A stretch of DNA of 64,000 nucleotides from the NCBI GenBank assembly GCA_025057275.1, contig JANWXQ010000020.1, positions 65,004-129,003 of the forward strand, in the 5' to 3' direction. The notes beneath the pieces were generated by a model. The model had not been told where the DNA came from. It made no database searches and saw only the letters and a program-made list of their open reading frames with translations. The DNA comes from Chitinophagales bacterium (GTDB taxonomy: Bacteria > Bacteroidota > Bacteroidia > Chitinophagales > UBA10324). Below, one piece after another: positions 41,352 through 61,561 of the stretch. A program made the translations under genes and the position numbers. How positions within the stretch are numbered: the stretch's first letter is position 1; the number at the start of each line of letters is the position of its first letter.

Positions 41352-41381
41352 GTTTTTACACTTTTTTACACTTTTTAACAC
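41352..41381 (-). promoter_or_regulatory. Three tandem repeats, putative MraZ operator
   Basis: On the minus strand three decamers follow each other: GTGTTAAAAA, GTGTAAAAAA and GTGTAAAAAC. The ACAC cores on the plus strand are at 41358-41361, 41368-41371 and 41378-41381, a period of exactly 10 bp. Three repeats on the same face of the helix directly before mraZ is the arrangement described for MraZ boxes, and the AAAGTGT core resembles the form reported in mollicutes. A palindrome CACAATTGTG (41379-41388) abuts the last repeat. Confidence 0.65.
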
Positions 41382-41551
41382 AATTGTGGAAAAAAATTTT
41401 GTGATGGACCGCAACGGCATCAAGCCCTATGCATTCTGCCCAGACCGGCTTAACCGGACACGATACAGGCAGATGCCTGAGCATTCGGGATGAACAAAGG
41501 GCAGAGTACTTGCAGGGGGCGGCCGGCAAACAACTGTGCCGATCTGCAGCG

Positions 41552-56032: not shown

Positions 56033-56989
56033 ATGAAAAACCTGTTCTTCCTTGCGCTAGCCTTCACTTTGGTTACCGCCTCCTGTACGAAGGAATACAC
56101 CGGAAATCCGACAAACGGACAACAAAACAATCAGAATAACGACACCGGTGGTAGCGGCGGCGGTGGGGGCACGGGTGGGGGAGGTACCGGAGGAGGCGGC
56201 ACCGGAGGTGGTTCAGCCGTAGGGCCGGTTCCCAATACCTTCACCCAGAAAGTACTCATTGAAGAGTTCACCGGCGAATGGTGTGGCTATTGCCCTGACG
56301 GCGCCCTGAAACTGGAAGCAGCCGTCAACCAGCATCCGGGCAAGGTGTTTGGAGCCGCCATCCACGACGGCGACCCCTACGAAATTCCCTCGCTCAACTC
56401 CACTTTTCAGTCTACTTTCAATGTGTCCGGCTATCCCTCCGGCATGGTAAATCGTACTCCTTCGGGAAGTCAGGTTTGCCTGGACCGAAATTTCTGGCTC
56501 AGTTTTGCTACCAGTCAGTTGGCTAATAATGCCGTTTGCGGCCTGGCCATGACTTCTTACACGACCGGCACCGACAGTTTCTATGTGCAGGTACATGCCG
56601 GATTCAACCAGGCACTGACGGGTAATCACTACCTCACCGTGTACGTATTGGAAGATGGCATCGTCAGCAACGGCCAGGCCAATTACTATAACGACGGCTC
56701 CATTGATCCGAATTCTCCTCTGGTGGGATTAGGCAATCCTATTGTCAATTGGGAACACGATCATGTAGTTCGTCAGGTGCTTACCGCTCCGTTGGGCGAT
56801 CCGATTCCGGCTTCCAAACTTGTTCCCGGCGGCGAACACGTCGTCAAATTCGGCGGGCGCTACACCGGAATCAAGAAAGACAAAATGAGCTTCGTTGCTT
56901 TCGTCAACACTACCGGAACCACTTCGCTGGACCATAAAATTCTCAACGTGCAGAAAGCCAAGCTATACGAAATCAAAAAATGGGATTAA
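56033..56989 (+). CDS. Omp28-like lipoprotein with thioredoxin-type motif
   Basis: A 318-residue lipoprotein: signal peptide with lipobox LVTASC (Cys at about 18), a disordered Asn/Gln stretch, then a glycine-rich linker of about 25 residues (GGSGGGGGTGGGG repeats, 56147-56215). The Omp28/PG1058-type domain follows, with EEFTGEWCGYCPDGA, a thioredoxin-like CxxC, and the conserved VSGYPSGMVNR segment (cis-Pro position). Function in Bacteroidota is unclear; a surface redox or binding role is inferred. A strong terminator follows 21 bp after the stop. Confidence 0.82.
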   Translation: MKNLFFLALAFTLVTASCTKEYTGNPTNGQQNNQNNDTGGSGGGGGTGGGGTGGGGTGGGSAVGPVPNTFTQKVLIEEFTGEWCGYCPDGALKLEAAVNQHPGKVFGAAIHDGDPYEIPSLNSTFQSTFNVSGYPSGMVNRTPSGSQVCLDRNFWLSFATSQLANNAVCGLAMTSYTTGTDSFYVQVHAGFNQALTGNHYLTVYVLEDGIVSNGQANYYNDGSIDPNSPLVGLGNPIVNWEHDHVVRQVLTAPLGDPIPASKLVPGGEHVVKFGGRYTGIKKDKMSFVAFVNTTGTTSLDHKILNVQKAKLYEIKKWD

Positions 56990-57010
56990 GAAATTTTCTA
57001 TGCGTAAAAA

Positions 57011-57040
57011 ACGCCGTCAGAAAAAGACGGCGTTTTTTTT
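57011..57040 (+). terminator. Intrinsic terminator after the Omp28-like gene
   Basis: ACGCCGTC (57011-57018) and GACGGCGT (57026-57033) form a perfect 8-bp stem, with A-rich sequence before and seven T after; the flanking A and T tracts can extend the stem, so it could work in both directions. Confidence 0.85.
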
Positions 57041-57174
57041 GACTTCCCTCCCCTATGAATCGGTTTTCCACCTGTGTGCATTTCTGCTGTTAACATTTTG
57101 TGCATATTTTCCAAATAAAAAGCTTGCATGATCCATTTTGAGTTAAGATGTTTGGTATGCCGATCAAAACATCG

Positions 57175-57340
57175 CTTCTTCCGCAAGGGAGAGTTTTCCG
57201 GAGGCTGTGAGGCACCGGAAAATGGGAAGTGGAAACACGGAACGGCAATTCGAAGGTCGGCGTAGCCTAAGAAGCCAAGGTTTCTTAGGTTGCGGGAGCG
57301 GAAAAAGTTAGACCAACTTTTTCCGCTCTCTTCGTTTTAG
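57175..57340 (+). ncRNA. Candidate structured RNA, five consecutive hairpins
   Basis: The 486-bp gap between 56990 and 57475 contains no gene but strong secondary structure. H1: 57176-57182 with 57187-57193, GCAA tetraloop. H2: TTTTCCGG 57194-57201 with CCGGAAAA 57215-57222, directly next to H1. H3: 57229-57231 with 57236-57238, GAAA loop. H4: CCTAAGAA 57266-57273 with TTCTTAGG 57282-57289. H5: a perfect 14-bp stem, 57296-57309 with 57315-57328, followed by TCTTCGTTTT. The H2 loop (AGGCT, 57202-57206) is complementary to AGCCT at 57264-57268, a possible pseudoknot. Strand is not certain; the GNRA loops and the T-rich end favour plus. It does not match any RNA family I know. It could be a free small RNA or the leader of the protease gene. 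Confidence 0.45.
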
Positions 57341-57475
57341 CGGATAGCAACTCTACCGTCAAATGAACTGATAGGGACCGAAGCTTTGCGGTGTGGAAAG
57401 GATTACAAAACTGTTAGCAACTTTTCGCCCCTCCCCTTTCACCTAAGAGTAATTTTAGCAAAACATTTTGTTTTC

Positions 57476-60400
57476 ATGCGGTTGCTCATCCGGGGGCTTT
57501 TACTGAGCATGGCTCCCGTTCTGCTGCAGGCCCAATCCGGACAAATCATCCGCATCAATCACCAGCCCTTTGCAGCCCATGAAAACTCCAAACGATGCAG
57601 CAAGGAACTGGACATGATCCGGCAGCAGACCGTTATGGGATATGCACCGGCCCTGCTGCGTTTTCATGAGCTGCCCTCCGGTGATCAGCGTCTGTTGCTG
57701 AATGCCCAAACGGGTATCCGTCTGACGCGCTATGCCGGTCATCACACCTACTATGCCCTGATTCCTGAAGGCATCAGGGAAAACGACCTGAATGGCTGGA
57801 ATTTTTTTGGCATTTACCCGATACCGCCTGAAATCCGGTTGGCTCCTGCATTGCAAAATCAGGCCTTCCCGGACTACGCCCTGCAAAGTGACGGCTCTTT
57901 GCGCATCATCGTGGTGGGTTTCGAGCATATACCACCAGCCTTCATGATGCAGGAGTTGATGTCATTGGGTTATTCGCCACAGCGTTTTTCCGAACATGTT
58001 TCCATTTTTTCCCTGACTGTTCCGCCGCAAGAGCTACCTGCTCTGACCTCATTACCTTTTGTTGCCTACGTGGAGCCGGCCTATCCGCCGGCCCTGCCGG
58101 ATAATCGCGAAGAAGTAACCGGTAACCGTGCAAACCTGCTCCAGAATGGCTTGTTGTTTCCTTACGACGGCAGTGGCGTCTGGATCGGATTGAATGATGA
58201 CGGCGCCGTTTCCGCCCATATTGACCTGCAGGGTCGCATTGACAATACCGCAGTGGGACAAGCCGATGAAGGCAATCATGGCAATCATGTTGCCGGAACC
58301 CTGCTCGGTGCAGGCAACCTCAACCCGATTACCCGCGGGCATGCTCCCGGTGCTCAACTGAAAACCTATTTTGCTTATCAAAGCTATCAGCCACAATACG
58401 GAGCGTGGTTTGACATTCCCAACACCTACGTAGAGCCGGGCATCACTATTACCAATACGGCAGTGAGCGATCTGGTTTGCAACGGAGGCTATAATTCGTT
58501 ATCCCAACTGTTGGATCAGCAAACCCTGGATTATCCTTTGCTTAATCACGTGCTTTCGGCTGGTAATGCCGGTCAGGAAAACTGCGGACCCATTGCCGGA
58601 TTTTATACGATTACCGGCGGCCATAAAACAGCCAAAAACTGCATTACCGTCGGCAGCGTGGATGATTACGATAAGATCGACGAGATCAGCAGCCGGGGGC
58701 CAGCCAAGGATGGACGCCTCAAGCCCGAAATCATGGCTGCCGGTGTGGATGTGTACTCCACCTATGCCAACAACGAATACAAGTCGCTGAGTGGCACCAG
58801 CATGGCCTGTGCCGGCATCAGCGGCATCCTGGCCCTGCTTACCCAATCCTTCAAAGAACACAATGGCGAGAAAATGCCTCCCTCTGCCTTACTGAAAGCC
58901 GCCTTGCTCAACACCGCTGACGATATGGGGTGGGCTGGCCCCGACTGGAAGCATGGTTACGGTCGGGTGAATGCGCGAAGGGCGGAGCGATTGCTTACGG
59001 AAAACCGCTATGTAACCGGCCTGGTGGATCACGGACAAACCGTAACGTTTCCGCTGAATGTACCTGCCGGAGTACGTCAGCTTCGCGTCATGCTTTACTG
59101 GCATGACGCTCCGGCCGCTTTAGGCGCAGCCAAGGACCTGGTAAACGACCTACAGTTTCAATTGCAATTGCCCAACGGCAACATGCTCGATCCGTGGATT
59201 CTGGATCCCACGCCGGTAAAAGACTCTTTGAATAAAGCAGCCTGGCGCGGTGTGGATACGCTCAACAATCACGAACAGATTACACTAAACAATCCGATGG
59301 CCTCCGGCAGCTATACCCTGATCGTGCACGGAGCTACGGTGCCTTTGGGGCCACAGGAATTTTATATTGTTTACGATTTCTGTTACGATGAGCTCACCCT
59401 TACCTATCCCGTCGGTGGCGAAAGCTGGACGCCAAACGAAAAACAAATCATCCGCTGGGATAGCTACGGCCTGCTCAAGCCGCTTACATTAGAAATTTCT
59501 TATGACGACGGATTGACGTGGAACCTCATCGCGGCCGGTCTTGACTCGTTTCTGCGCTGCTACGAATTTACCGTGCCGCAGCAGTCCAGCGGCCGGTGCC
59601 GGGTACGCATTTCACGAAGCGACACCAGCAGCGTAAGCCAGTGGTTCTCCATATTTCCCACTCCTGCCGGTCTGAAATGGCAGCAAATCTGCCCTTTGAC
59701 TGCCCGCCTGTCGTGGAATGCGGTTCCCGGTGCTACCCATTACGAAACCTTTCTGCTGGGCCCTTACGAGATGCAGCCTGTAGGCACGACCACAAAGAAT
59801 TTTTTTGATTTCTCCGGACTCAATACCAATAACACAGACTGGGTAGCGGTGCGTGCCTATGGCAACGACAGTATTGTTAGCCGTCGTTCCTTAGCCTTAC
59901 TGAAGCCTGCCGGCCTGTTGAATTGTACACTTTCAGCAAACCTTTCGCTAACTGCCATTTCGCCCAAGCCGTATCCCTACTCGGCCTGCATGGACCTGAA
60001 GCAGTCCCTTATCAGCGTAACGATAACCAATACGGCACAGAATGATATGAGTGGTTTTTACATCAGTTATCAGGCCGATAACAGCCTGCCGGTTACCGAA
60101 TGGTATTCGGGCGTTGTAAGCACCGGAGAACAAGCTACCTACACGTTCGCCACTCCTGCTGATTTATCTGCCGAAGGTCCCCACGAAATCCGCTGCTGGA
60201 TATCTGCCGCTTCTGACCAAAACCCGTGGGACGATACGCTGAAGCAGCAGATTATGATTGCTCCGGGTCAGCTGGTTTTCCTTCCCGTGGTGGAGACTTT
60301 TGATGCTATTTCCAAGTGCGAAACCACCAACAGTTGTTCGGACGGCATTTGCCCGCTGAACCTGCCCTGGATCAATCTGACCAATCTGATGTACGACAGC

Positions 60401-61561
60401 ATTGACTGGCGGGTGCATGCCGGGAACACGCCGGGAGATCAAACCGGCCCCTCCGGCGACTTCAATACCAGCGACGGTAAAGGCCACTACATTTATCTGG
60501 AAGCCGGCAACTGCAAAAACAAAAGCGCCCACCTGCTGCTGCCCTGTGTGGATCTGACCACCGCCAAGCAACCCAGGCTGGTCTTTGCCCGCCATCAATA
60601 CGGGCAAGGCATGGGTAGCCTGAGCATAGACCTTTTCGTTCAGGGAGCATGGCTGACCGACTGGTTTTACTCATCAGGTAATCAGGGAAACTTCTGGATA
60701 GCCGACACATTGGACCTGAGTGCGTTTTGCGGACATGTGATAACTCTCCGCTTTCGCGGAACCACCGGCAACACCTCTACCAGCGACCTGGCTTTGGATG
60801 CTCTTGCGGTTTACGATGCCGCCGCGGTATATCCATCCATCACCGTCAACGGTGCTGCCTGCGCCGACAGTGCGTTGCAGGTGATCAACACTTCCACCGG
60901 CGAAATCACCTACACTTCGTGGTCTTTTGGCCCGGATGCCTTTCCTGCCTATGCAGAGCAAACCGACACAGTGACGGTCGTTTTTTCTTCTGCCGGATCC
61001 AAAACCGTTTCGTTGACCGTTGGAAACGCGTACGACACACTTACCCTTGTGCAGGATGTAATGATTCGCAAGCCACCGGTAGCTCAATTTACTTCGATGC
61101 AGAATAGTTCCGGAAGCTTTGTTTTCTCCAGCACTTCGCCGGATGCCGACCATTGCCTGTGGCTTTTTGGCGATGGAACGCAGACCACCGGTTGCGAGGT
61201 CATTCACGACTTTACCGTCTCGGGCATCTTCACCGTAACATTGGTCAGCAGCAACGAATGCGGAAGCGACACGGCTGTGGCCACCATCGTGGTCAGTCAT
61301 AATCCGTCAGAAGTAGCTTACGTGCCCATTGCGTTCGCTCCCAATCCTTTTGACCATCAATTAACCATCAGGACTGTTCACGACGTGCATTCGGATGCCT
61401 GGCTTCGTTTCTACCTCGCTTCCGGTCAGTTGCTCCATGAATTTCCTGTGGCTTCCGGCAGTACGGTTACCGTGGGGACAGCCTCGTGGCCGGCCGGTGT
61501 CTATCTGGCTACATACGAAGATGCCCGGCATATCTATCGCTTTAGGTTGATCAAGCGATAG
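57476..61561 (+). CDS. Subtilisin-like S8 protease with T9SS type A sorting domain
   Basis: A 1361-residue exported protease. Signal peptide (from ATG 57476, ending near LQAQS), an N-terminal prodomain-like region, then the S8 domain with Asp241 in GLNDDGAVSAH, His268 in NHGNHVAG (most subtilases have HGTHVAG) and Ser442 in LSGTSMACAG. A P-domain-like beta region follows (about 530-640), then FN3-like (around 740-830), a MAM-like/jelly-roll segment (about 960-1120), a PKD domain (about 1200-1290) and the C-terminal sorting domain (FAPNPFDHQLTIRT; WPAGVYLATYED). The frame opens 30 codons earlier, but the signal peptide places the start at 57476. T9SS would carry it to the surface or medium, where it probably digests protein. 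Confidence 0.88.
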   Translation: MRLLIRGLLLSMAPVLLQAQSGQIIRINHQPFAAHENSKRCSKELDMIRQQTVMGYAPALLRFHELPSGDQRLLLNAQTGIRLTRYAGHHTYYALIPEGIRENDLNGWNFFGIYPIPPEIRLAPALQNQAFPDYALQSDGSLRIIVVGFEHIPPAFMMQELMSLGYSPQRFSEHVSIFSLTVPPQELPALTSLPFVAYVEPAYPPALPDNREEVTGNRANLLQNGLLFPYDGSGVWIGLNDDGAVSAHIDLQGRIDNTAVGQADEGNHGNHVAGTLLGAGNLNPITRGHAPGAQLKTYFAYQSYQPQYGAWFDIPNTYVEPGITITNTAVSDLVCNGGYNSLSQLLDQQTLDYPLLNHVLSAGNAGQENCGPIAGFYTITGGHKTAKNCITVGSVDDYDKIDEISSRGPAKDGRLKPEIMAAGVDVYSTYANNEYKSLSGTSMACAGISGILALLTQSFKEHNGEKMPPSALLKAALLNTADDMGWAGPDWKHGYGRVNARRAERLLTENRYVTGLVDHGQTVTFPLNVPAGVRQLRVMLYWHDAPAALGAAKDLVNDLQFQLQLPNGNMLDPWILDPTPVKDSLNKAAWRGVDTLNNHEQITLNNPMASGSYTLIVHGATVPLGPQEFYIVYDFCYDELTLTYPVGGESWTPNEKQIIRWDSYGLLKPLTLEISYDDGLTWNLIAAGLDSFLRCYEFTVPQQSSGRCRVRISRSDTSSVSQWFSIFPTPAGLKWQQICPLTARLSWNAVPGATHYETFLLGPYEMQPVGTTTKNFFDFSGLNTNNTDWVAVRAYGNDSIVSRRSLALLKPAGLLNCTLSANLSLTAISPKPYPYSACMDLKQSLISVTITNTAQNDMSGFYISYQADNSLPVTEWYSGVVSTGEQATYTFATPADLSAEGPHEIRCWISAASDQNPWDDTLKQQIMIAPGQLVFLPVVETFDAISKCETTNSCSDGICPLNLPWINLTNLMYDSIDWRVHAGNTPGDQTGPSGDFNTSDGKGHYIYLEAGNCKNKSAHLLLPCVDLTTAKQPRLVFARHQYGQGMGSLSIDLFVQGAWLTDWFYSSGNQGNFWIADTLDLSAFCGHVITLRFRGTTGNTSTSDLALDALAVYDAAAVYPSITVNGAACADSALQVINTSTGEITYTSWSFGPDAFPAYAEQTDTVTVVFSSAGSKTVSLTVGNAYDTLTLVQDVMIRKPPVAQFTSMQNSSGSFVFSSTSPDADHCLWLFGDGTQTTGCEVIHDFTVSGIFTVTLVSSNECGSDTAVATIVVSHNPSEVAYVPIAFAPNPFDHQLTIRTVHDVHSDAWLRFYLASGQLLHEFPVASGSTVTVGTASWPAGVYLATYEDARHIYRFRLIKR

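Follow-up and report, generated by a model that had tools for sequence, protein, structure and literature searches.

RNAs known to be coupled to bacterial replication control are few, and CcnA from Caulobacter crescentus is the one retrieved by our limited search of the literature. This 182-nt non-coding RNA is linked to the cell cycle; its gene, located at the replication origin, contains DnaA boxes (PMC8959179). In the Bacteroidota, where TAnnTTTG has been identified as the main -7 promoter element, Rfp18 and other sRNAs of Flavobacterium psychrophilum are independent structured transcripts; the main text of that study makes no mention of DnaA (PMC9723704). Another independent and highly folded RNA is 6S RNA (RF00013, RF01685), which acts by binding protein and folds into a single extended rod interrupted by a central bubble. 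In Escherichia coli, datA and DARS are clusters of DnaA boxes located away from the origin, which act as DNA.

Here, we analyzed a 64,000-nucleotide stretch of a Chitinophagales genome (the window), in which positions 57160-57338 form a structured RNA of about 180 nt between genes, apparently equipped with a promoter and a terminator of its own. CcnA is the nearest known case in logic, owing to its similar length, its DnaA boxes and a putative common tie to the cell cycle, homology not being implied; CcnA lies at the origin and is presumably activated by CtrA, whereas the Chitinophagales RNA shows no skew switch, has its array upstream of the promoter and belongs to another phylum. The independence, similar length and extensive folding of 6S RNA are also found here, with a multibranch domain followed by a terminator in place of the rod. 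The box cluster, probably off the origin like datA and DARS, differs from them in standing at a fixed distance from a covarying RNA gene. Rfp18 and the other F. psychrophilum sRNAs share an independent, structured nature, the phylum and the TAnnTTTG element, a likeness at the level of description, these being RNAs from another class of the phylum.

Architecture of an RNA with promoter-like and terminator-like ends

The minimum free energy of positions 57160-57350 is -81.8 kcal/mol, versus -55.6 +/- 5.0 for dinucleotide shuffles (z = -5.20; 0/200 as stable). The opposite strand folds more weakly (z = -3.23), and the corresponding values in three relatives are -6.3, -6.2 and -6.1. An original prediction, made from the letters of this DNA, had proposed five stems, which folding recovered at their positions, as well as the abutment of H1 and H2, a perfect 14-bp stem in H5 (57296-57309/57315-57328; 16 bp with the outer pairs) and a terminator upstream, which is real. 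Two points required correction: GNRA caps are indeed present but on three stems (GCAA, GUGA and GAAA) instead of two, and the folded region delimited as 57175-57340 exists but truly starts about 15 nt further upstream. The features of the locus are as follows:

57006..57040, + strand: terminator of the upstream Omp28-type gene (stem 57006-57038), separating that gene from the RNA gene
57064..57107, + strand: array of four DnaA-box-like 9-mers, upstream of the promoter
57064-57072: inverted DnaA-box-like 9-mer TTTTCCACC
57075-57083: direct DnaA-box-like 9-mer TGTGCATTT
57088-57096: direct DnaA-box-like 9-mer TGTTAACAT
57099-57107: direct DnaA-box-like 9-mer TGTGCATAT
57124..57154, + strand: Bacteroidota-type promoter, TTG (57124-57126), 20 bp, then GATGTTTG (57147-57154), which fits the -7 consensus TAnnTTTG
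57158..57338, + strand: RNA gene, approximate transcript, with the start predicted from the -7 element and the end from the terminator
57160..57165, + strand: P1 5' arm CCGAUC, pairing with GGUCGG at 57255-57260; maintained in 11 genomes through numerous compensatory changes
57171..57176, + strand: P2 5' arm AUCGCU, pairing with GGCAAU at 57244-57249; one C.A mismatch in the window
57177..57192, + strand: H1 stem, GCAA loop at 57183-57186; 7/9 pairs with double changes
57193..57223, + strand: H2 stem, inner GCU-GUGA-GGC cap; most relatives retain the GNRA cap, and this is the weakest of the helices by covariation
57229..57238, + strand: H3, GUG-GAAA-CAC; 3/3 pairs with double changes
57244..57249, + strand: P2 3' arm GGCAAU, partner of 57171-57176
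57250..57254, + strand: J3 UCGAA, conserved internal-loop strand between P1 and P2, facing AAAAC at 57166-57170
57255..57260, + strand: P1 3' arm GGUCGG, partner of 57160-57165
57262..57293, + strand: H4, 14-bp stem with a CAAG loop; 8/14 pairs with double changes
57294..57338, + strand: H5, 16-bp terminator hairpin with a UUCGUUUU tail; 9/15 pairs with double changes, positive in the terminator scan
57476..61561, + strand: gene for an S8 protease carrying MAM and PKD domains, adjoining the RNA only within the genus and outside the RNA unit

The 5' to 3' order is hence P1, the AAAAC/UCGAA internal loop, P2, the multibranch stems H1-H3 (each GNRA-capped), H4 and the terminator H5. P1 and the inner P2, both absent from the original prediction, unite H1-H3 into a single multibranch domain. 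P2 is perfect in five relatives (G001, G003, G008, G007 and G077), and two of its positions show C-G to G-C double changes. The J3 strand reads NCGAA in eight genomes (once UCGGA) and GCUAA in G025 and G021, and neither form is found in G067. Outside the genus, H4 is capped by a UACG tetraloop, mostly closed by C-G, and a UACG-capped stem immediately followed by a long hairpin was found only at the RNA loci in about 1.4 million bases scanned, a scan whose loop or stem criteria miss G000 (the genome of the window), G001 and G025. The distance from promoter to H4 is about 102-106 nt within the family and rises to 129-175, 211, 328 and 398 nt elsewhere, so the multibranch periphery appears free to grow between families.

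The TTG-N20-GATGTTTG promoter is conserved in relatives, against a background of 0.17 matches per kb per strand; neither this promoter nor the box array ahead of it figured in the original prediction. The locus is a covarying RNA whose ends resemble a promoter and a terminator, and its transcription as a unit is predicted from these ends. We are highly confident that 57158-57338 is a separate, stand-alone RNA gene; it combines the two marks of an independent structured bacterial ncRNA, namely a covarying structure and what reads as its own promoter and terminator.

As originally proposed, this structured non-coding RNA belongs to no family known to Rfam: Rfam 15 at gathering thresholds gave 0 families in the window, and relaxed thresholds gave only sub-threshold chance or terminator matches. 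The 6S model RF00013 had no match in the G000 genome, with control matches in 5 genomes; the search with RF01685 (6S-Flavo), whose control matched nowhere, is uninformative, and the fold is multibranched and not a rod with a central bubble. The SRP RNA (RF00169) of G000 lies on another contig. Judged by Rfam 15 and a limited literature search, the RNA is previously unregistered, and an earlier description may exist.

Covariation and distribution among relatives

The RNA is kept in ten related genomes, drawn from its own family and from four others in the order, with a varying sequence and a constant architecture. Relatives found by blastn had E-values of 3e-57, 6e-9, 1e-24 and 7e-22; the other genome of the genus (G001) matches at 85% and G003, from the same family, at 74% over the 3' half. 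The use of G003 as a query added G008 and G007, and a first covariance model built from these three recovered all five family genomes together with G077, G055 and G067 (one family) and G025 and G021 (two more families). A second model gave 129 to 184 bits on seven genomes, 53 on G067, 41 on G025 and 31 on G021. With models R1/R2, matches were obtained in 5/16 genomes of the family, 3/6 of another, and in G025 and G021. The models did not detect the RNA in the other 11 of the 16 family genomes, several of which are near complete, meaning either frequent loss or divergence beyond detection; the relatives are draft and metagenome-assembled genomes.

A scan of GTDB genomes for the H4/H5 core returned four true copies (L025 and L030-L032); four further matches in Alphaproteobacteria lacked covariance-model support and were rejected. 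Matches outside the order in a class-wide model search were judged, by reading, to be chance matches to the terminator only.

In an alignment of seven sequences, 91.7% of cells pair and 35 of the 52 pairs changed on both sides, which answers the check for covariation that the original prediction had put forward. Double-change cells numbered 63, versus 20.6 +/- 3.6 in shuffles, and every measure exceeded all 500 shuffles (0/500 as high), while shifting the partners by one to three columns abolished the signal; this alignment was fitted to the model, which biases the count towards structure, and the margin is large. An alignment-free test of P1 took as its input the 16 nt after the -7 element and the 14 nt at the domain end before H4 in 11 genomes: native pairs averaged 14.5 versus 10.1 across families, and 0/100000 re-pairings reached the observed sum, a result somewhat inflated by kinship as the statistics include related species.

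The DnaA-box-like array upstream of the promoter

Boxes were scored against the consensus TTWTNCACA. Those of the window are all imperfect (best 8/9, none 9/9), with direct repeats 13 and 11 bp apart. The relatives carry an inverted box at about -96 from the RNA start or P1 and direct boxes near -85, -74 and -62, of which the last two are spaced by 11 bp; TGTGCATAA occurs exactly at -85 to -87 in G001, G003, G008 and G055, and G021 harbors exact TTATCCACA and TGTGGATAA boxes. The distance from array to promoter is fixed in genomes of five families, so that boxes at a set promoter distance, the hallmark of a DnaA-regulated promoter, are found in the relatives, with imperfect boxes in the window. 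On these grounds the array is probably bound by DnaA, and its TGTG repeats could also be readable by another factor.

The array pattern, searched blind to the RNA, matched 9 times in 398 genomes of the order. Six matches were known RNA loci and a seventh, in G037, was a new RNA locus missed by the covariance model, in a family without any model match. G037 displays the array, promoter, P1 (GUCAAG/CUUGAU), a UACG stem and a terminator, and was assigned by architecture; it has only two good boxes, as many as are held by 3% of background windows. The match in G293 fell in coding-like sequence and was taken as chance, and that in G298 is a dense box cluster with no recognised RNA. In G077, the array and the RNA start first assigned were about 67 nt too far apart; moving the start to a TACTTTTG element at the right distance revealed P1 (CUUGAU/AUCAGG) and P2 (AUCCG/CGGAU), both overlooked by the model. 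The G037 RNA and the G077 start correction are predictions borne out, not fits.

Elsewhere on the contig, the densest DnaA-box-like spot by count is a short, low-complexity tandem run resembling TTTTACAC at window positions 41354-41393, and a similar spot occurs at G001:C19:104864.

Mode of action and genomic context

We propose a stand-alone RNA gene, probably controlled by DnaA, whose product would act via its fold or a protein bound to it, an explanation to which, taken whole, we give an even chance. A housekeeping-type Bacteroidota promoter would start the transcript and the H5 hairpin would end it, both elements being conserved in relatives. Covariation shows that the RNA folds into a closed multibranch domain (P1, the NCGAA internal loop, P2 and GNRA-capped stems), a long stem that in many cases bears a UACG cap, and the terminator. 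DnaA on helically spaced boxes just upstream of the promoter probably controls transcription, which would couple the amount of RNA to replication initiation or to the level of DnaA-ATP. GNRA and UACG tetraloops are stabilising loops. Because nearly all of the RNA is paired, its loops are of this type and no extended single-stranded segment is conserved between families, the RNA may bind or titrate a protein through its fold sooner than act by an antisense seed, a weak preference held with roughly balanced confidence. CsrB-like titration of CsrA, prompted by GGA motifs in the window, was rejected, as relatives such as G003 lack these motifs.

A classical orphan structured sRNA, whose array would bind an activator other than DnaA and which would pair with mRNAs via its loops or the strand around J1, is possible but rather unlikely. 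The Bacteroidota do possess independent sRNAs of conserved fold predicted to pair with protease mRNAs (Rfp18, PMC9723704), and the AAAACAU segment, mostly single-stranded, is conserved within the family. Outside the family, however, this segment is not kept; the loops are GNRA or UACG, and DnaA is the best fit for the exact consensus boxes of G021 and for the array of G055.

The locus might instead serve first as a chromosomal DnaA-binding site, for titration or reactivation in the manner of datA and DARS or as an origin, with the transcript as a by-product aiding opening or insulation. The combination of inverted and direct boxes with 11-bp spacing recalls origin arrays, and the cluster without recognised RNA in G298 is similarly dense. 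We consider this reading improbable: covariation denotes selection on the RNA itself, the boxes hold a fixed distance to the promoter, and cumulative GC skew keeps the same sign across the locus in G000, G001, G003 and G008 (G007 being too flat). Since no GC-skew switch occurs there, the locus is probably not oriC, on evidence that is good but not final, GC skew being weak in this group of genomes.

In G000, G001, G003 and G008, the direction of the RNA gene is opposite to that of the leading strand as suggested by GC skew. The G298 cluster (L126, G298:C1 about 1387184-1387500) has a weight of 17 in 300 bp, the next best in 400 kb being 4, and shows the same syntax as the RNA arrays; cumulative GC skew climbs to this point and is flat beyond, making it a possible oriC of G298.

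The original prediction placed the RNA in relation to the T9SS protease, and the two are indeed on the same strand, with about 140 nt between the RNA and the protease start downstream of it; the RNA also precedes the protease in G001. This arrangement could suggest a cis leader or riboswitch with H5 as a conditional terminator. The S8 protease follows the RNA only in the two genomes of the genus; the neighbours elsewhere are a P-type ATPase and an S41 protease in G003, an AlkB-type oxygenase in G007, a SpoU methylase in G008, a Rieske oxygenase in G055 and a prephenate dehydratase in G067, and the next gene is convergent towards the RNA in G008, G055 and G077. These different and partly convergent downstream genes make the leader or riboswitch reading very unlikely, and a tie to the protease is likewise unsupported. 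Nor did the suggested switch withstand comparison: the GGGAGAG/CTCTCTT alternative pairing, 7/7 in the window, drops to 6, 5, 4 and 3 of 7 elsewhere and fades within the family, so that no mutually exclusive conserved folds were found for it. A pseudoknot between the H2 loop and AGCCT, also suggested, forms 7 bp in the window and 3, 2, 4 and 5 in four relatives. A remnant of a mobile element or repeat, which changing gene neighbourhoods and patchy detection might evoke and which had been named as a refuting outcome, is scarcely credible for a region that evolves by compensation, is single-copy in its own genome (a second listed match is the H5 palindrome on the other strand) and has 0 matches in the plasmid and phage collections, two pattern matches in viral contigs being due to chance.

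No neighbour gene shared across most families was found; the only one seen in common across families encodes a PIN-PhoH protein, directly downstream of the RNA in two of them (L052 7519-9300 in G025; L125 1-1600 in G037). Upstream of the RNA in the window, the Omp28-type lipoprotein gene (56033-56989) encodes a protein in which the signal sequence is followed by a long glycine-threonine linker.

For the stand-alone, probably DnaA-controlled RNA gene, the promoter array offers a practical route to further members, as it revealed one RNA and allowed the 5' end of another to be corrected, both with bodies too diverged for the covariance model. Tentatively, and short of regarding it as probable, we suggest that a DnaA-controlled ncRNA is a general, previously undescribed part of the Chitinophagales, which would report replication initiation to other functions via a protein on the conserved P1/P2 core while its periphery expands among families, from about 100 to 400 nt. 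If DnaA control is true, the RNA would represent an RNA output of DnaA in five families of a phylum whose cell cycle is little studied.
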